Virus record (IMG/VR): IMGVR_UViG_3300042507_001041
Span: 1 to 25,229 of that record
Source: a virus
Reading direction: 5' to 3' (one strand)
Length of the DNA stretch: 25,229 bases
The translations under genes and the position numbers were made by a program. Under the pieces are notes generated by a model. The model was not told the origin of the DNA and ran no database searches. It saw only the letters and a list, made by a program, of their open reading frames with translations. The stretch's first letter is position 1; each line of letters begins with the position of its first letter. Shown piece after piece: positions 1,484-16,138 of the stretch.

Positions 1484-2389
1484 TTATTTATTTTTGATTT
1501 GTTCTAACTTTCTTTGCGCCCATTCTATTCCAGCGTCACCACCCCAGCTTAGCCACATTAAACGACCGCATCCATCCCCTAACTCCTTTTGTGAACTTTG
1601 TCTATGTCGCTCAAAACTTGCCATTCGTGAAATTGTATCTTCGCTTATATTCTCTCCGTTTGCTAATTGGTTGGCACGGGCTTTTCCTACTGGAGTTCCG
1701 CAATCACCCCATCCGTTTTCTTCAGCATAACGTAAAGCTATTTTAGCATTTTCACTTGCTTCTTTTGGATAGTCGTTGTAAGTTTCTAATTTGTATTGTT
1801 CGTCTTTTAGTATCAAATCACGAATAGCATTAATCAATCTATCATCTTCAGTTTCTTGTAAACTCATTTCGTATTTATCTACAAAGTAACCCTCAATGCT
1901 GAATCCTTTTACTTCACCTGCTTTTACCTTGTTCCAGATTTCATCGTTGTTTACTTTCATTGAAATCATCCAAGTGCCTTTAGGTAAATTGAAGTTATAT
2001 AATCGACTTTTATCCGTCTTTTCGTCTTCAATAATCCAGCTTTCAACAACCGACATCCCGTCAAGCATTTTCTTTTCGTGTTCTAACGTGGCGTTGTTTT
2101 GGTTAGCTCGCATTAAAAATAACTCCGATGCTTTGCGTACTGTTTCCTCACTAAAATAAATATAGAATTCTTTGTCTCCGTTTTTACGGTAAATCTGTTT
2201 GTTAGGAACTAAAGCCGCACCCATTAAGATACGCTTTTCTCCGTCTACTTCTTTAAGTTCAACTTCGTGTTTTTTTAAGGCTACAAAATTCTCTTCTATT
2301 GCTGGACTTTCAACAACTGAAACCGCATTGATACCGCTTTCGATTTTATTCTCATCAATAAGCAGTTCTATAATTTCCATCTTTGCCAT
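1484..2389 (-). CDS. XkdF-type prohead protease-like protein
   Basis: The protein has 301 residues. After a short leader containing VSVVESPAIEENFVALKKH, residues ~45-175 match the XkdF-type putative phage serine protease fold: RILMGAALVPNKQIYRKNG, YFSEETVRKASELF, LEHEKKMLDGMSVVESWII and GEVKGFSIEGYF. The histidine in NATLEHEKK and the serine in KGFSIEG are the obvious catalytic candidates. The C-terminal ~110 residues are a separate module with ENGWGDCGTPVGKARANQ, MASFERHRQ and GCGRLMWLSWGGDAGIEWA, which I recall attached to head proteins of Bacteroidetes phages; its role is unknown. It presumably processes head proteins. It follows the tape-measure gene, which is an unusual order. Confidence 0.82.
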   Translation of the reverse strand: MAKMEIIELLIDENKIESGINAVSVVESPAIEENFVALKKHEVELKEVDGEKRILMGAALVPNKQIYRKNGDKEFYIYFSEETVRKASELFLMRANQNNATLEHEKKMLDGMSVVESWIIEDEKTDKSRLYNFNLPKGTWMISMKVNNDEIWNKVKAGEVKGFSIEGYFVDKYEMSLQETEDDRLINAIRDLILKDEQYKLETYNDYPKEASENAKIALRYAEENGWGDCGTPVGKARANQLANGENISEDTISRMASFERHRQSSQKELGDGCGRLMWLSWGGDAGIEWAQRKLEQIKNK

Positions 2390-9870: not shown

Positions 9871-11031
9871 TTAATGAATAAAATACTGCCCATAATGAGG
9901 GTTAACTCCCAACACTTCCATTTCGTGGTAACGGATTGCGTCTATTGAGTGGTTATTAAAGTCGATAGGCTTATTAAGACGAACGCCAGTTTTATCAGTG
10001 TCCCAAATGTAACCGCGCAATTCTTTGATTAGATTAGTGCTGTTTGAGGTTACCAAATACTCTTGGCTTTGCATTATTTGAATACCGAAGTTTATTGAGT
10101 CTTTGCCTTTTGTTACGCCTTTAATCGTCTTTCCGTATCTTCTTATTTCTTCGATTGACTTAGGTTCTGAGCTGTCCGCATAAATTGGTACGTTACCAGG
10201 TAGCACTTTAGCTATGTCGCTGTTTATCATTCCTGTTTTGTAAACAAGTTCGTTTAAGATTCTTTGACCATTCCATGTATAAACTTCAACGGCTGCTGTT
10301 GGGTCGTTTGTATATCCAAAGTCAAGTCCTATTCCTATCAATCTCGCATCACTTGGAACTTTGTCTATTTGTTTCCAGTTGCTGAATATAACGCCTTCTA
10401 ACATTCCTATTTCACCTAAACCATATACACGCCACCAATTACTCCAATAAGTGCTTGTAAGAGCTTTTTCTCTATTCTTTTCTATTTGGTCAATAATTGA
10501 CTTGTCAAGAGCTTCGTTGTCTTTGTAGGTTAGAATTATAAAGTCTGCATCAGGTTCGTCTTTTAGTTCGGTATGTACCCAGAATTCGCTGGTAGGGTTA
10601 AAATCTAAGTAAACAAATTTCTTTGTTCTAATATTAAGCTGCTGGAAACTTTCAAAGTTTACGTTGTTACATTCGTTTATAAATAGAATATCACGCCTTG
10701 CACCCCTTAATTTGTCGGGTTGGTCTGCGCTAAAAAATTCAATGTAACTGCCTTTATTAAATCGATATGTGAGACTTGACTGATTGAAATTACCTTCGTT
10801 AAAATTACCTATCCATCGCATTATTTTTATAAAATCTTTTAATGCTCCTCTTTTAATATGTGGTATTGATTCAGCAACTACCGATATTTCGCTGTTCGGG
10901 TTATCAATAGCATACTGAATTAAAAAAGTAAGTATTGTAAACGTTTTCGAACTTGAAGTTCCGCCCTGGATAATTCTAATTCTTTTTTTTAATTGTGCTA
11001 TTTTTTTCTGCGCTGTTGTTTTAGTCAACAT
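9871..11031 (-). CDS. terL: Terminase large subunit
   Basis: This ATP-driven DNA-packaging motor and nuclease has 386 residues, a usual though short length. The Walker A motif GGTSSSKT is at residues 23-30, followed by a Walker B-like segment (RDILFINECNNVNF) and the coupling region VYLDFNPTSEFWVH. The C-terminal RNase H-like nuclease is marked by IGIGLDFGYTNDPTAAVEV, PIYADSSEPKSIEEIRRYG and NHSIDAIRYHEME; the aspartates in the first, second and last of these are the likely metal ligands. Its ATG overlaps the small-subunit stop by 11 bases. It ends 9 bases before a small gene and, unusually, no portal gene follows. Confidence 0.93.
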   Translation of the reverse strand: MLTKTTAQKKIAQLKKRIRIIQGGTSSSKTFTILTFLIQYAIDNPNSEISVVAESIPHIKRGALKDFIKIMRWIGNFNEGNFNQSSLTYRFNKGSYIEFFSADQPDKLRGARRDILFINECNNVNFESFQQLNIRTKKFVYLDFNPTSEFWVHTELKDEPDADFIILTYKDNEALDKSIIDQIEKNREKALTSTYWSNWWRVYGLGEIGMLEGVIFSNWKQIDKVPSDARLIGIGLDFGYTNDPTAAVEVYTWNGQRILNELVYKTGMINSDIAKVLPGNVPIYADSSEPKSIEEIRRYGKTIKGVTKGKDSINFGIQIMQSQEYLVTSNSTNLIKELRGYIWDTDKTGVRLNKPIDFNNHSIDAIRYHEMEVLGVNPHYGQYFIH

Positions 11032-11371
11032 CTATATCAAGTTTATTAAATATAGGTTTTTCAGCTTCTTCGGTTACCGTGTGGTTCATTGCCAATTTAC
11101 GTAGCTCTTCAGGTGAAGCAATCAGTTTCATTAACGCCATTTGTAAAGCTGGTGCGTTTGACTTATACCATTTTGAACGCATTGAAACTTTTAATTCAGT
11201 TCTGTTTTGGTTTAATAATTCTTTTAGCTCCTCCGATTTTTCCATTTCCCAAGCATAAAATGTACTGGAGGAAATAGGAAGGTAGGCTATAATATCATCA
11301 AAAAAAAACAATCGGTGTTTAACAATCATTTCTTTTGCTTGTTCGTATATCTTTTTTTTATCGTATCCCAT
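11021..11371 (-). CDS. terS: Terminase small subunit
   Basis: The 116-residue protein is encoded immediately upstream of terL with an 11-base overlap, as expected for the DNA-recognition subunit of the packaging motor. The N-terminal half contains a helix-turn-helix-like segment (HRLFFFDDIIAYLPISSSTF, then YAWEMEKSEELKELLNQNR). The middle has RSKWYKSNAPALQMALMKLI, typical of small terminases of Bacteroidetes phages, and the end is acidic. It starts 22 bases after the folE stop, so packaging genes follow the DNA-modification cassette directly and may share its transcript. Confidence 0.82.
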   Translation of the reverse strand: MGYDKKKIYEQAKEMIVKHRLFFFDDIIAYLPISSSTFYAWEMEKSEELKELLNQNRTELKVSMRSKWYKSNAPALQMALMKLIASPEELRKLAMNHTVTEEAEKPIFNKLDIDVD

Positions 11372-11392: not shown

Positions 11393-11938
11393 TTATTTTA
11401 TTAAATTTAAAAATTCATTACGAGCGTTTAAATCAGTTTTGAATACTCCTAACATTTTGGATGTTGATGTCCATGTATCATGTTTTTTAACGCCTCGCAT
11501 ACACATACAAAGGTGCTGCGCCTTTAAATGAACTGCTACTCCTTTTGGATTAAGTTCGTTTTGTAATCGTTCTGCAATTTGTGATGTTATTCTTTCTTGG
11601 TTTTGAAAACGATTTGCGTATAAATCAACCGTTCGTGCTAATTTACTTAAACCTACTATTTTTTCATTAGGAATATAAGCTACGTCAGCAGTACCAAAAA
11701 ATGGTGCAGTATGGTGTTCACATATCGAATAAAAAGGAATATTTGTTTGAATTATCATTTCATCAGTTCCTTCAGCATCAAAAGTTGTAAAATTAAATTC
11801 CTTTGGTTCTAAAAATTCACGCATAAATTTGATGTAACGCTTTGGTGTATCTTTTAAACCTTCTCGATTAGTATCTTCTCCTAAATGTTCTAAAATAGCT
11901 TTAAAATGCCATTCAGGGCTGTTTATAATATATTCCAT
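11393..11938 (-). CDS. folE: GTP cyclohydrolase I
   Basis: FolE converts GTP to 7,8-dihydroneopterin triphosphate, the first step of preQ0 and folate synthesis. At 181 residues it is near the usual core length. The zinc site is intact: C73-E-H75-H76 in YSICEHHTAPFFG and C144 in QHLCMCMRG. Other family blocks are NREGLKDTPKRYIKFM, IVGLSKLARTVDLYANRFQ and LKAQHLCM. The start overlaps the queE stop by 16 bases, making it the last gene of a queC-queD-queE-folE run downstream of dpdA. In this setting it supplies the 7-deazaguanine pathway, not primarily host folate. Identity is very safe. Confidence 0.95.
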   Translation of the reverse strand: MEYIINSPEWHFKAILEHLGEDTNREGLKDTPKRYIKFMREFLEPKEFNFTTFDAEGTDEMIIQTNIPFYSICEHHTAPFFGTADVAYIPNEKIVGLSKLARTVDLYANRFQNQERITSQIAERLQNELNPKGVAVHLKAQHLCMCMRGVKKHDTWTSTSKMLGVFKTDLNARNEFLNLIK

Positions 11939-12525
11939 ATTTTATGATTTTGAAGTGATAATTTCCATTTTGGATTTTGTATACATAAGTCAATGCAATG
12001 TTTTAAATTATCCGTGTTTATGTTAAAACCATCTGAATGCGGACTTAACCAATAATGATTTGCTTGTATACTTGGTTCGGGAATAGATTGACCTTTATGT
12101 CTTACATAACGTAATTCACTTACTCCGTTTTGAAAGTTTTTTTTTATTACGTGTTCTGCTACCTTTGGAGAAACACAGATAAAATCTAAGCCTTCGGGTG
12201 CAGGATGAAGACCGCTTGTTTCTACTGCTTGATAATATCCGTTTTGTTTAAAATAACAAATAATTTCAAAAGTTAATTGGTCTAAAGGTTCACCACCAGT
12301 CCAAGTAATTTCTTTACATCCATTTGCGTTTTCACTAATCCAATTTTCAATTTCTTGGATTTTCATTTCTTTGCCGCTTTCAAATTCAGTATCGCATTTT
12401 ATTCCAGCCGAAAAACAAGCATTTTTTGCTTTGCAACCTTGTAATCTTATAAATATTGTTGGCGTTCCTATTCTGGCTCCCTCACCTTGAAGGGAATAAA
12501 AAATTTCACTTACTTTTAATTTCAT
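11923..12525 (-). CDS. queE: 7-carboxy-7-deazaguanine synthase (radical SAM)
   Basis: QueE rearranges 6-carboxy-tetrahydropterin to 7-carboxy-7-deazaguanine. The 200-residue protein shows the family start FYSLQGEGARIGTPTIFIRL and the SAM-binding TWTGGEPLDQ. The iron-sulphur region reads LQGCKAKNACFSAGIKCDT, so the cysteines are C31, C37 and C44 (C-x5-C-x6-C) in place of the usual C-x3-C-x2-C, while the following Asp-Thr is kept. ETSGLHP and VSPK motifs further along match QueE. It overlaps queD by 20 bases and folE by 16. The variant spacing does not exclude activity, since other QueE branches also have expanded cysteine loops. Confidence 0.92.
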   Translation of the reverse strand: MKLKVSEIFYSLQGEGARIGTPTIFIRLQGCKAKNACFSAGIKCDTEFESGKEMKIQEIENWISENANGCKEITWTGGEPLDQLTFEIICYFKQNGYYQAVETSGLHPAPEGLDFICVSPKVAEHVIKKNFQNGVSELRYVRHKGQSIPEPSIQANHYWLSPHSDGFNINTDNLKHCIDLCIQNPKWKLSLQNHKIWNIL

Positions 12526-12919
12526 AAATAACGTTTGAAGATTCTGTTTCTGCTAATTGTATTTCGGTTATTTTTAAACCTGTTTCGTTTTGTATTCGTG
12601 TAAATAACCAAATTGCCATGTTTTCTGCTGAGGTTTCAAAAGGTAGTTTTTTAATTGGTTCATTTGCTAACTCCAAAACAAACACCAGTGGGTCGTTTTC
12701 ATATAATAAAAACCAGTGACAATATTCTTTTATAATTGGTTCAACCAATTTATCAATATCTGAAAATAAAAATGTAATTCCTCCTTCGTTAATTTGTTCA
12801 AATTTAAACTTACATTTTACTTTGTAAGTATGCCCGTGAATGCGACCACATTTTTCACCACCAGCTTTATTTCTATGCGCTGCGTAAAAGTGATATTTTT
12901 TTTCTATTATCATAACCAT
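12506..12919 (-). CDS. queD: 6-carboxy-5,6,7,8-tetrahydropterin synthase
   Basis: QueD, of the PTPS family, converts dihydroneopterin triphosphate to 6-carboxy-tetrahydropterin. The protein has 137 residues, or 135 if it starts at the second ATG (12911-12913), which overlaps the queC TGA as ATGA and is probably the real start. In 137-residue numbering the zinc histidines are H15 (HFYAAHRN), H28 and H30 (CGRIHGHTY), and C24 is the expected catalytic cysteine. LFSDIDKLVEPIIKEYC and SAENMAIWLFTRI are further family blocks, and the AETESS glutamate near the end matches the substrate-binding residue. It lies between queC and queE in one overlapping unit. Confidence 0.94.
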   Translation of the reverse strand: MVMIIEKKYHFYAAHRNKAGGEKCGRIHGHTYKVKCKFKFEQINEGGITFLFSDIDKLVEPIIKEYCHWFLLYENDPLVFVLELANEPIKKLPFETSAENMAIWLFTRIQNETGLKITEIQLAETESSNVIYEIKSK

Positions 12920-13572
12920 CCTTTTTGTTTTGCTTCATAATAACCTTTAACTCTTAATTCAGTTGCTGGATTATTATTTAATCCATAACCCCACTCATTT
13001 TTTATCATATTTCCATTATAATCTGTTAATGTATCATTTATTATTACATCTAAACAATTCAAATCTTTTGCCATTTTCCATGTTTCTGCTTTATTCAAAT
13101 ACATTAAAGGAGTGTGTATTTTAACGTCTCCAATTCCCAATCCGAGGCTCAAAGATAATTCAATTGCATCAATAGTTGTCTGTCTGCAATCTGGGTATCC
13201 TGAGTAATCCGTTTGACACACTCCCGTAACTATATTATTTGCTCTAATTTCAGCACAATAAGAACCTGCAATAGTCAAAAATAAAATATTTCTTCCAGCT
13301 GTAAAACTTGCTGGTAATTCTTGATTAATTTTACTTTTTTTATTGTGATTTGTGTTTTCTGTTAAACTACTCGGCGCAAGTAAATTTTTTACGTCAAATA
13401 TTTTATAATTAACATCAATATTATTCGCTATTTTTTGAGCCTGTATTAATTCTTGTTTATGCATTTGTCCGTAATCAAATCCAATAGCATAAATCTCTTT
13501 AAAATGTTTTTTTGCCCAATATAAACAGGTTGTTGAGTCCTGACCTCCGCTTAATAAAATTACTGTTTTCAT
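12910..13572 (-). CDS. queC: 7-cyano-7-deazaguanine (preQ0) synthase, zinc site lost
   Basis: QueC uses ATP and ammonia to turn 7-carboxy-7-deazaguanine into preQ0. The 220-residue protein has the PP-loop SGGQDST at residues 8-14, then IGFDYGQMHKQELIQA, LPASFTAGRNILFLTIAGS, GVCQTDYSGYPDCR and HTPLMYLNKAETWKMA, all as in the family. The C-terminal zinc site normally formed by four cysteines (CYNG ... C-x2-C-x2-C) is gone: the equivalent residues appear to be D184, L198, N201 and T204 in TDYNG ... GYGLNNNPATELR. The surrounding sequence and length are kept, so this looks like a tolerated variant and not decay. The start overlaps the dpdA stop as ATGA. Confidence 0.92.
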   Translation of the reverse strand: MKTVILLSGGQDSTTCLYWAKKHFKEIYAIGFDYGQMHKQELIQAQKIANNIDVNYKIFDVKNLLAPSSLTENTNHNKKSKINQELPASFTAGRNILFLTIAGSYCAEIRANNIVTGVCQTDYSGYPDCRQTTIDAIELSLSLGLGIGDVKIHTPLMYLNKAETWKMAKDLNCLDVIINDTLTDYNGNMIKNEWGYGLNNNPATELRVKGYYEAKQKGWL

Positions 13573-14300
13573 AAATTGTTTTCTGCGTATTTTGAAAATT
13601 TAACCCATTCGTTAAAATTATTTAGAGCCGTCATATTTGTTTTAACTCTTTGTCCTATTTCTTTATTTCGTTTTTTCATTGTTTTTCCATCAAACCAATA
13701 AACAGAACCAAATCTATTGCCCGATAACCATGATGTACTATCAACAGAATAAAATTTATATTTTTCTAATCCTTTTAAATTTGTAAATCCTAATCCGTGA
13801 ACTTTACAGTTATTTTGTTGTGCTATTTTTAATAATGGAAAAAAAATATTGTATTGACTGCTTTTTATTTCTTTAGTAACAATTCCACCAATAGCAATAA
13901 AATTATATTCTTTACACATTTGTTTCCAATATTCTAACCCTCTTGACTTATGCCATACAGGAATACACTGTTTATTTGTCAATTTTTCAAGTTTATTTCT
14001 TAATCTCTCAACCTCTTTTATTCCTACAATTGAATCAATATCTAATTCAAAAAAATATTTTACATTGTATTTATTAATAAAATTAGCATATTCAACTATA
14101 TAATTATCCCAATTTAAGTTCGAACCTGATTTATTCATATAAGTAAACGCACCACTATCCAATAAAAACATATTATATTTTAATATATTTTTTTCTTCAC
14201 CTTTTATATAAACAAAACTTTCAAGTCTATTAAAATCAAAAAAATCTCTATTTTCCCAACAATGCTGATTCCATCCACTTCCTGCTAAAAAAATTTTCAT
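13569..14300 (-). CDS. dpdA: DpdA-like DNA 7-deazaguanine transglycosylase
   Basis: This 243-residue protein matches short phage DpdA proteins, relatives of tRNA-guanine transglycosylase that exchange guanine in DNA for a 7-deazaguanine such as preQ0. It shows LLDSGAFTYM with D48, ELDIDS with D87 and D89, PVWHKS with H117, AIGGIV (G138-G139), HGLGFTNL at 168-175, and YSVDSTSWLSG with D187. D48 and D187 are the expected catalytic aspartates. The cysteine zinc site of bacterial Tgt is absent, as expected for compact phage forms. ATGA overlaps join it to the ParB-like gene upstream and queC downstream. The gene is markedly AT-rich. Identity is strong; base product and site specificity are not visible. 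Confidence 0.87.
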   Translation of the reverse strand: MKIFLAGSGWNQHCWENRDFFDFNRLESFVYIKGEEKNILKYNMFLLDSGAFTYMNKSGSNLNWDNYIVEYANFINKYNVKYFFELDIDSIVGIKEVERLRNKLEKLTNKQCIPVWHKSRGLEYWKQMCKEYNFIAIGGIVTKEIKSSQYNIFFPLLKIAQQNNCKVHGLGFTNLKGLEKYKFYSVDSTSWLSGNRFGSVYWFDGKTMKKRNKEIGQRVKTNMTALNNFNEWVKFSKYAENNL

Positions 14301-14839
14301 AAACCTAATAATTTAAAAACTATCTGTTCTTTGCTTCCGCTATGTTTTTTAAATGCTTCGGTTACACTTTCAAAATCTTCATCCGTATATTCTAAAATAA
14401 TTTTATTTTTCTGTTCTTTTGATTCGTTATTCTCTTCAAAAAAATCTTCCAAATTTATATCGTTATTAAATATAGGAACTTCTAATCCCCACTCATTTAA
14501 CTTTTCAGAATCCCATTCGTTTGCAAGTGCATCCCATTCCCATTCTCCAAAACCTACGTTGTCTTTTATTAAAAATTCGTGTTTTTGTTCCTCAGTCCAT
14601 TCGTCTGCTACTATAATTGGTATTTCTTTTAATCCTATCTCTTTACACGCTTTTAAACGCATATTACCACCCAAGACAACGTATTTATTATCTACGTCCG
14701 TAAAAACGATTAAAGGTCGTTTATTTAGCATATCAGGGAACTCCTTTATTGAAGTTACTAACTTATTAAATTTTCCGTCTTTTATTATTCTTGGGTTCTT
14801 TGGGTTTGGTTTAACCTCACTTATTTTAACTAACTTCAT
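14297..14839 (-). CDS. ParB-like nuclease-domain protein coupled to dpdA
   Basis: The 180-residue protein has an N-terminal ParB/sulfiredoxin-type domain: LVKISEVKPNPKNPRIIKDG, RPLIVFTDVDNKYVVLGGNM with RLKACKEIG, and KEIPIIVADEWTEEQKHEF. A segment KDNVGFGEWEWDALANEWD follows, then an acidic linker and a C-terminal piece (ILEYTDEDFESVTEAFKKH). Proteins of this kind often sit beside phage DNA methyltransferases. Here the stop overlaps the dpdA start as ATGA, so the two are probably made together, and it may be a DNA-targeting or loading partner of the transglycosylase. That partnership is inference; a nuclease or regulatory role is also possible. Confidence 0.82.
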   Translation of the reverse strand: MKLVKISEVKPNPKNPRIIKDGKFNKLVTSIKEFPDMLNKRPLIVFTDVDNKYVVLGGNMRLKACKEIGLKEIPIIVADEWTEEQKHEFLIKDNVGFGEWEWDALANEWDSEKLNEWGLEVPIFNNDINLEDFFEENNESKEQKNKIILEYTDEDFESVTEAFKKHSGSKEQIVFKLLGL

Positions 14840-15595: not shown

Positions 15596-16138
15596 TTATT
15601 TTATTAATTCATAATCCTCGTTTTTGTAGTCCTCATAATGTTCGCCTACTTCTATTTTTAAACTATCCTTGCAGTATTTTAACGTTTGCCATACTGACTT
15701 AAAACTTATTCCAGTGCATTTTTGTATTTGGCGTGTACTCATTCCAGTATCTCGGTAAAGTTCATATAGTAATTTGTCGTACCAATGCCAACTATTTACT
15801 GTTTCGTTTATTTTATTTTCTAATTCTATTTGTGCTTCCGTCTTTTCGGTTGGTTCGCTTTCATCTATTAATTGTATTGCCTCCGTTATATCGACTTTTT
15901 GAAGCCTTTGTTTAGATTTTTCAAAGTCGTAGTACATATTTCTTAAAACAACCCACACAAACCCCTTGTAAATAACTCCATTTCGGTAAAATCTTTCTTT
16001 GTTTTCGTGTTTTGCTAACTTTAAATACATCTCTTGCACTATATCCTCTGCTAAACTATACTCGCCAAACGATTTAACTACCTTAATCCAGTGTTTATGT
16101 TCAACATACAAGTCATTCAGAAATTGATTAGAGTCCAA
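15596..16138 (-). CDS. Sigma-70 family (ECF-like) RNA polymerase sigma factor
   Basis: The 180-residue protein has the two-domain plan of a compact sigma factor. Region 2 covers about residues 10-75 (SFGEYSLAEDIVQEMYLKLA, then KGFVWVVLRNMYYDFEKSK), and region 4 about 120-165, where YRDTGMSTRQIQKCTGISF and KSVWQTLKYCKDSL form the helix-turn-helix expected to contact the -35 element. An acidic, Glu-rich linker joins them. It would redirect host RNA polymerase and is well placed to drive the modification, packaging and virion genes downstream. No specific target promoter is evident. The start overlaps the membrane-protein gene by 11 bases. Confidence 0.8.
   Translation of the reverse strand: MDSNQFLNDLYVEHKHWIKVVKSFGEYSLAEDIVQEMYLKLAKHENKERFYRNGVIYKGFVWVVLRNMYYDFEKSKQRLQKVDITEAIQLIDESEPTEKTEAQIELENKINETVNSWHWYDKLLYELYRDTGMSTRQIQKCTGISFKSVWQTLKYCKDSLKIEVGEHYEDYKNEDYELIK

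Follow-up and report, generated by a model that had tools for sequence, protein, structure and literature searches.

A ParB-like gene paired with a divergent dpdA in a predicted viral 7-deazaguanine DNA-modification cassette

Introduction

Phage cassettes that combine genes for the synthesis of 7-cyano-7-deazaguanine (preQ0) with a dpdA gene are well known. Passages of PMC6884629 report, from mass spectrometry, that phages CAjan and Rosebush carry the modified nucleoside dPreQ0, and list Rosebush with the same pathway genes. In bacteria, Dpd islands serve in self/non-self marking together with a restriction operon (part of PMC11888242). DpdB, a member of the ParB superfamily, generally accompanies DpdA according to a section of PMC6392294 (2019), which also put forward open reading frame (ORF) 1 of phage CRB2 as a possible homologue of dpdB; an extract of PMC12839542 describes DpdB as a ParB-like ATPase that is used for insertion and is dispensable in certain clusters. 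A passage of PMC10893344 names ParB-like and dpdA-like genes together for a subcluster B5 mycobacteriophage. Here, we describe a six-gene cassette with adjoining ParB-like and dpdA genes in IMG/VR virus record IMGVR_UViG_3300042507_001041. The window analysed is the entire record (25,229 bases), the completeness of which is unstated. An earlier note on this DNA, made from its letters alone, regarded the coupling of a ParB-like gene to dpdA as undescribed, a view that does not survive the 2019 suggestion for CRB2 and the description of DpdB in the excerpts cited above.

The window cassette is a divergent variant of the known ones. What is new is the generality of the ParB pairing, together with a split between ParB-like genes and sliding clamps, across 184 dpdA loci. 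At the level of listings and passages, we found no survey of the ParB–dpdA link and no mention of this split in the literature searched, and nothing on ParB-like proteins with queuine tRNA-ribosyltransferase or on ParB-like proteins with queuosine and phage DNA modification. Among the papers listed, one (PMC10002423) mentions both DpdA and a sliding clamp. The pairing bears on the way in which DpdA locates its target guanines in duplex DNA and on the role of the many ParB-fold proteins beside phage DNA-modifying enzymes.

ParB-like genes and sliding clamps beside dpdA

A ParB-like gene lies beside dpdA in 118 of 184 non-redundant loci. These comprise all window-type loci from viruses (46/46) and from genomes (28/28), 38 of the 51 Sonali/Funsized-type viral loci and six of the 15 isolates; the Queuovirinae-type viral loci have none (0/44). 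A DNA-polymerase sliding clamp is encoded downstream of dpdA in 61 loci (43 Queuovirinae-type, ten Sonali/Funsized-type and eight isolates, with none among the window-type viral or genome loci). ParB-like gene and clamp occur together in none of the 184 loci, and five have neither (L019, L106, L152, L167 and L176). The three clamps that were tested belong to phrog_947, DNA polymerase processivity factor. The survey of dpdA neighbourhoods that the earlier note had proposed thus finds ParB-like neighbours recurring, and the generality of the partner is better supported here than that note could know. A local accident in the window was rejected as an explanation of the coupling on the strength of these counts.

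The DpdA relatives were drawn from viral contigs, bacterial and archaeal genomes and 17 records of an annotated collection, giving 310 loci including the window. The viral scans took the best 80 of 397, the best 80 of 256 and the best 80 of 307 relatives, and the sample follows these three query types. Clustering at 90% DpdA identity left 224 representatives, and 40 with short flanks were dropped to give the 184. A ParB-like gene was counted as beside dpdA when it lay within 700 bases of the dpdA ORF on the same strand, and one small gene may intervene (as in Funsized, Typha and Roos); a clamp had to lie within 1.5 kb downstream of dpdA. The ParB profile was seeded from the window protein and the clamp profile from seven isolates. 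An independent search with PF02195 was positive for 17 of 33 records and missed Funsized, Finch, L003, L004, L013 and L018, which were found by the seeded profile or by annotation.

In the annotated collection, the clamp family is present in eight of the 17 records; none of these eight matches PF02195 at any point or has a ParB-like gene in the stretch that was fetched. Of the remaining nine, eight carry a ParB-like gene by dpdA, and the exception, Bacteroides phage BS162P1, has neither gene. Cellulophaga phage phiSM carries a ParB-like gene beside dpdA and, 2.5 kb off, an annotated processivity factor that is too divergent for the clamp alignment.

The commonest ParB–dpdA junction is a 4-base overlap (a gap of −3 in 52 window-type representatives, with ORFs taken from the first start codon). 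All 29 genome loci have the pair, and in 18 of them the fetched stretch contains no gene for QueC, QueD, QueE or FolE; the ParB-like gene is thus linked to dpdA and not to preQ0 synthesis. When ParB presence was mapped on a tree of 114 DpdA sequences it required 11 changes, compared with a shuffled mean of 37.5, and none of 200 shuffles gave a value as low; the labels followed a narrower adjacency rule, which scores L115, L118, L135, L183 and L248 as ParB-less although ParB is present. In view of the pairs without preQ0 genes and the clustered labels, the ParB–dpdA pairing is old and tied to DpdA lineages, not acquired independently in each phage, and the ParB/clamp split reflects few evolutionary events. 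Two other phages, Sonali (Arthrobacter) and Finch (Rhodococcus), have the order ParB–DpdA–QueC–QueD–QueE–FolE, and their DpdA proteins are 23% and 20% identical to that of the window, respectively. Phages that show the pairing infect Cellulophaga, Faecalibacterium, Arthrobacter, Rhodococcus and Fusobacterium, and one contig of an Archaeoglobus metagenome-assembled genome (L299) has it as well.

Two long DpdA ORFs are present in eight of the 184 loci. Doubled dpdA genes lie beside one ParB-like gene in L115, L118, L135 and L248, with one copy split into two ORFs in L248. Such pairs could be two enzymes for two motifs.

The DpdA protein

The label 'DpdA-like' needed confirmation by profile and structure because the 243-residue protein has no match in Pfam and the NCBIfam DpdA model matches residues 132–192 only (24.7 bits, with a cut-off of 200). 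The phrog_887 match (Table 1) spans residues 1–231. An hhalign comparison of a 50-row window DpdA alignment with seven Queuovirinae-type DpdA sequences, a set that excludes CAjan itself, gave an E value of 7.8e-42 and a probability of 100; comparison of the window alignment with one bacterial DpdA gave an E value of 5.7e-7 and a probability of 92. The AlphaFold2 model has a predicted local distance difference test score (pLDDT) of 94.7 and aligns along its whole length on tRNA-guanine transglycosylase (TGT), with a Z score of 15.7 and a root-mean-square deviation of 3.4 for 236 residues. One sequence search of the PDB returned chance matches only, and a further search returned 7ui4, a DNA-guanine transglycosylase (E = 0.01), and a TatD hydrolase (E = 0.57). 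Residues D48, H117, H168 and D187 are invariant both in 25 diverse rows and in 50 rows. We take D48 and D187 to correspond to the general base and the nucleophile of TGT, helped by the motifs aligned with bacterial DpdA.

By profile and predicted fold, the 243-residue protein is a divergent phage DpdA, and insertion of a base into DNA is its predicted activity. Its grouping with DpdA, as anticipated in the earlier note, is borne out, and the candidate explanation that it is not DpdA was rejected, since the profile match and the TGT fold settle the identity despite the empty Pfam result. It is extremely improbable that the genes instead raise queuosine in host tRNA, with the DpdA homologue acting on tRNA and not on DNA. 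The TGT fold is common to tRNA enzymes, and such a role is discussed in a passage of PMC6884629 for phages without DpdA; however, the window protein is the barrel alone, as the alignment of the whole model indicates, its profile joins phage DpdA strongly and no queuosine-specific family was found among the 30 window ORFs scanned.

The ParB-like protein

PF02195 is the sole Pfam family that matches the ParB-like protein at E values of up to 1, and HTH_ParB (HTH, helix–turn–helix) gave no match at this threshold. The AlphaFold2 model has a pLDDT of 85.6 and a predicted template-modelling score (pTM) of 0.59. In the PDB it resembles CTP- or CDP-bound ParB structures most closely (Z score of 14.4 for 94 residues on CTP-analogue-bound ParB, model range 1–99), and its second half is poorly matched. 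The protein is therefore best described, from its profile match and model, as a predicted ParB/Srx nucleotide-binding N-domain (residues about 1–99) followed by a short C-terminal part without an HTH. Its phage relatives are found in annotated DNA methylases and as stand-alone ParB-like proteins, and it matches the N-terminal region of the DNA methyltransferase family phrog_498 (1.2e-25); thus, the ParB module goes with DNA-modifying enzymes. Passages of PMC12704722 state that both short ParB-fold proteins of a single domain and fusions of a ParB fold with a methyltransferase are present in phages, that nucleoside triphosphate (NTP) binding by ParB-fold proteins requires the Box II arginine (the equivalent of R61 in the window protein), and that nucleotide specificity is not reliably predictable by sequence analysis or AlphaFold3; neither 'transglycosylase' nor 'queu' occurs in the text of that source.

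An alignment of 58 window-type rows has an invariant G58 and a nearly invariant R61, which belongs to the G-x-x-R loop, and N94. G58 is likewise invariant in 21 more diverse dpdA-linked ParB-like rows. A cysteine pair, CPxC, ends eight of these 21 rows (including L008, L011, L012, L015, L016, L017 and L018) and is absent in the window protein; this tail is perhaps metal-binding.

Two bacterial dpdA loci were found in the 299 genomes searched, and in both DpdB adjoins DpdA. These DpdB neighbours (352–376 residues, DndB/DGQHR type) score 388–476 bits on NF041060, above the cut-off of that model, and match PF14072 (DndB). We think it somewhat unlikely that the window protein is a divergent stand-in for bacterial DpdB, that is, an ATPase powering base exchange in duplex DNA and not a clamp or targeting factor. 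The adjacency in both bacterial loci, the published description of DpdB as an ATPase for insertion and the identity proposed for the mycobacteriophage gene (see Introduction) all argue for it, and the LGGNMR segment of the window protein aligns with the GQQR loop of DpdB in the profile comparison. That comparison, however, has an hhalign probability of only 3%, neither NF041060 nor PF14072 matches the window protein, and DpdB itself is described as unnecessary in some clusters. The proposal that the ParB-like protein is DpdB was rejected as unproven on the first two grounds; judged by sequence, the two share a superfamily and belong to different families.

Role of the ParB-like protein

We propose that the ParB-like protein would be a dedicated nucleotide-binding accessory of DpdA, the nucleotide-bound state of which engages DNA and/or DpdA, and that it would load, hold or license DpdA on duplex DNA. 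The sliding clamp by dpdA in the other large phage DpdA lineage may do a corresponding job. We give the proposal of a nucleotide-dependent accessory about an even chance. It draws on the recurrent ParB–dpdA pairing, including the pairs without preQ0 genes, on the occurrence of the ParB module with DNA-modifying enzymes and on the nearly invariant R61 of the window-type rows. NTP binding by the ParB-like protein, its contact with DpdA and the equivalent role of the clamp are what we infer, and a targeting or processivity role for the ParB-like protein would be of the same kind.

Several results weigh against a tight ParB–DpdA partnership. In 39 complete window-type cassettes the divergence of ParB correlates with that of DpdA with a Spearman coefficient of 0.37, which falls to a partial value of 0.05; its correlations with QueC (0.72; partial 0.53) and with FolE (partial 0.36) are closer. 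No ORF in the 310 loci matches both profiles as a ParB–DpdA fusion would. Modification in CAjan needs DpdA, yet no ParB-like gene is annotated in the 25 kb around its dpdA; a ParB helper is therefore not universally needed. R61 is replaced by T or V in five of the 21 diverse dpdA-linked rows (L018, L020, L023, L024 and L029), so that it is not safe to assume NTP binding throughout the ParB-like set, and this R61-less branch is possibly nucleotide-independent or differently binding. Finally, the division between ParB and clamp runs along DpdA clades and may be a matter of inherited gene order.

It is unlikely, in our judgement, that the ParB-like gene is altogether independent of DpdA (a regulator, a partition remnant or a nuclease) and shares the operon through inherited order. 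Such independence would fit the lack of special co-divergence and the loss of the Box II arginine. In all, 238 phage records contain relatives of the ParB-like protein, most of all those of Microbacterium (64) and Streptococcus (55) phages, and these leading hosts differ from the leading groups of the dpdA search, which also favours independence. So does Fusobacterium phage phiFN37 (L017), which has three ParB-like genes, one beside dpdA, one by a 3′-phosphoadenosine-5′-phosphosulfate (PAPS) reductase gene and one apart. The pairing nevertheless persists at 20–23% DpdA identity across the diverse phage hosts and the Archaeoglobus contig listed above, and in the 18 genome pairs that have no preQ0 gene nearby. 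The missing HTH_ParB match also speaks against independence, and no ParA family was found among the 30 window ORFs scanned with PHROGs, in a record that may be incomplete. No terminase is annotated in the fetched stretches of phiFN37, phiSM, Sonali and Finch, and the explanation that the ParB-like gene is present because ParB genes sit by terminase was rejected as weak on this account. In the phiFN37 stretch, which yielded no preQ0 genes, a queuosine-precursor transporter gene lies two genes downstream of dpdA.

In a wider form of the accessory proposal, phage DpdA would need a DNA tether, for which one lineage would use the replication sliding clamp and the other a minimal ParB-fold nucleotide switch (a loader or clamp without a sequence-reading domain), the window belonging to the ParB-switched lineage. 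We consider this scheme distinctly unlikely as a whole. If true, ParB-fold proteins and sliding clamps would be alternative DNA tethers for DpdA. The presence of a ParB-fold gene with one enzyme class in most of the loci and of a clamp in others, never both, reduces the matter to a two-gene experimental question.

The preQ0 genes

FolE (TIGR00063) and QueC (TIGR00364) exceed the curated cut-offs, and QueD and QueE fall below the NCBIfam equivalog cut-offs. All four were found by family searches, which agrees with the complete set read in the earlier note. From the named families, FolE, QueD, QueE and QueC would produce preQ0, and DpdA would exchange guanine in the phage DNA for preQ0, as in CAjan and Rosebush. 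By analogy, dPreQ0 is the simplest and most likely product, since the gene set is the same as in these two phages, in which dPreQ0 is reported in the passages of PMC6884629; the earlier note had reached the same view.

The output of preQ0 is not certain, however, owing to the lack of zinc cysteines in QueC and the odd cysteine spacing in QueE. The three cysteines of QueE are spaced CX5CX6C, and the CX3CX2C spacing is found in five of 12 aligned rows. The CX5CX6C spacing is common to the close relatives L003, L010 and L013. QueD has C24, H28, H68, E99 and E124, all invariant in a nine-row alignment. QueC retains SGGQDS and YGQMHKQE (SGGxDS and YxQxHxxE), together with YPDC and the zinc-region tyrosine. 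It lacks the canonical C(x)8CxxCxxC zinc motif, a hallmark of QueC according to part of PMC13329287, and has NDTLTDYNG...NNNPATELR (DY...NNNPAT) in its place. A simple pattern sorts the 51 QueC sequences of window-type viral representatives into 36 with an NP-type tail and no CxxC and 15 with CxxC.

These tails, and the zinc cysteines retained in the QueC of the dPreQ0 phage CAjan, raise the idea that the cassette, its QueC having lost the zinc site, yields not preQ0 but another base, such as the intermediate 7-amido-7-deazaguanine (ADG) or 7-carboxy-7-deazaguanine (CDG), which DpdA inserts. We regard this as very unlikely. The other QueC motifs are kept, and among 148 Bacteroidota genomes the zinc-less tail is found in seven of 11 QueC matches with E values of 1e-20 or better. 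At two places (L326 and L324/L313, the latter two being the same place) QueF-II, QueD, zinc-less QueC and QueE are consecutive, with QueF confirmed by family search. This is a preQ1/queuosine context, which needs preQ0; the zinc-less QueC variant, judged from gene context, is therefore probably functional. These operons fit poorly with the idea that every QueC that makes preQ0 bears the motif, and they point to a branch of QueC in which the operon context is kept and the zinc motif is gone.

Genomic context

The six ORFs lie on the minus strand, from 14839 down to 11393, in the order ParB-like, DpdA, QueC, QueD, QueE and FolE (Table 1). From their coordinates they overlap head to tail by 4, 4, 10, 20 and 16 bases. 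The six overlapping genes of the earlier note are all present as ORFs in the order and at the positions that it gave, and family searches support each assignment.

Table 1. Positions and family matches of the cassette genes and of other window features.
Feature	Position	Strand	Length (residues)	Matches and remarks
ParB-like protein	14297-14839	-	180	PF02195 (ParB_N) 7.3e-10
DpdA	13569-14300	-	243	phrog_887 'queuine tRNA-ribosyltransferase' 1.3e-58; predicted DNA-guanine transglycosylase, TGT fold
QueC	12910-13572	-	220	PF06508 6.5e-59; TIGR00364 199 bits, cut-off 150.3
QueD, 6-carboxytetrahydropterin synthase type	12506-12919	-	137	PF01242 (PTPS) 1.4e-22; TIGR03367 7.7e-18, below cut-off
QueE, radical S-adenosylmethionine (SAM)	11923-12525	-	200	phrog_2076 5.2e-24; TIGR04508 5.5e-34, below cut-off
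FolE, GTP cyclohydrolase I	11393-11938	-	181	PF01227 3.8e-65; TIGR00063 212.1 bits, cut-off 181.6
Small ORF	11021-11371			No clear family; after folE
Terminase large subunit	9871-11031			After the small ORF 11021-11371
Sigma-factor-like ORF	15596-16138			phrog_1740 (phage RNA polymerase sigma factors) 1.2e-6, weak; upstream of the cassette
ORF with phrog_24921 match	1484-2389			phrog_24921 5.2e-49; weaker matches to head maturation protease and DNA methyltransferase families

Upstream of the cassette are a 79-residue ORF without matches, a 132-residue ORF of unknown function and the sigma-factor-like ORF. None of QueF, ArcS, Gat and DpdC was found among the 30 window ORFs scanned with PHROGs, a weak absence given that the record may be incomplete. 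The FolE protein itself gives weak, below-cut-off matches to QueF. The earlier note's statement that no QueF or amidotransferase-type gene is visible thus stands for the scanned ORFs and is less secure for the whole window. With the same reservation about the record, DpdC and the restriction genes DpdD–K were found neither by PADLOC in the six cassette proteins nor by PHROGs in the 30 ORFs.

Comparison with known systems

The closest cassettes are those of Funsized (of the mycobacteriophage CRB2/Funsized type) and Sonali, which have the gene order of the window, with one extra gene in Funsized. In Funsized and Typha the terminase gene lies two genes after folE, as in the window. The DpdA of the window is 21–23% identical to the CRB2/Funsized-type and Sonali proteins. 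In Funsized, unlike in the window, a QueF-like gene lies between the ParB-like gene and dpdA, and in Typha, also unlike in the window, no QueC was recognised in the fetched stretch. The window QueC differs from those of the CRB2/Funsized-type and Sonali cassettes in lacking the zinc cysteines.

The Queuovirinae-type cassettes (CAjan, Iggy, Vid5 and VpKK5) resemble that of the window in encoding DpdA, FolE, QueD, QueE and a QueC or Gat-QueC type protein. They differ in gene order and in having no ParB-like neighbour, and their dpdA lies by the gene for a DNA polymerase processivity factor.

The bacterial Dpd island (DpdA–DpdB–DpdC and DpdD–K) likewise places a TGT-like DpdA beside a ParB-superfamily protein, although DpdB is a DndB/DGQHR protein of about twice the length of the window protein. 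In having a ParB N-domain that is joined to a DNA-modifying enzyme or encoded next to one, the window resembles phage ParB-fold/DNA methyltransferase fusions and the ParBc neighbours of CmoX, the precise function of which is given as unknown in a passage of PMC12783734. The window differs from both in that its ParB-like protein is a separate polypeptide and the enzyme that it accompanies is a predicted transglycosylase.

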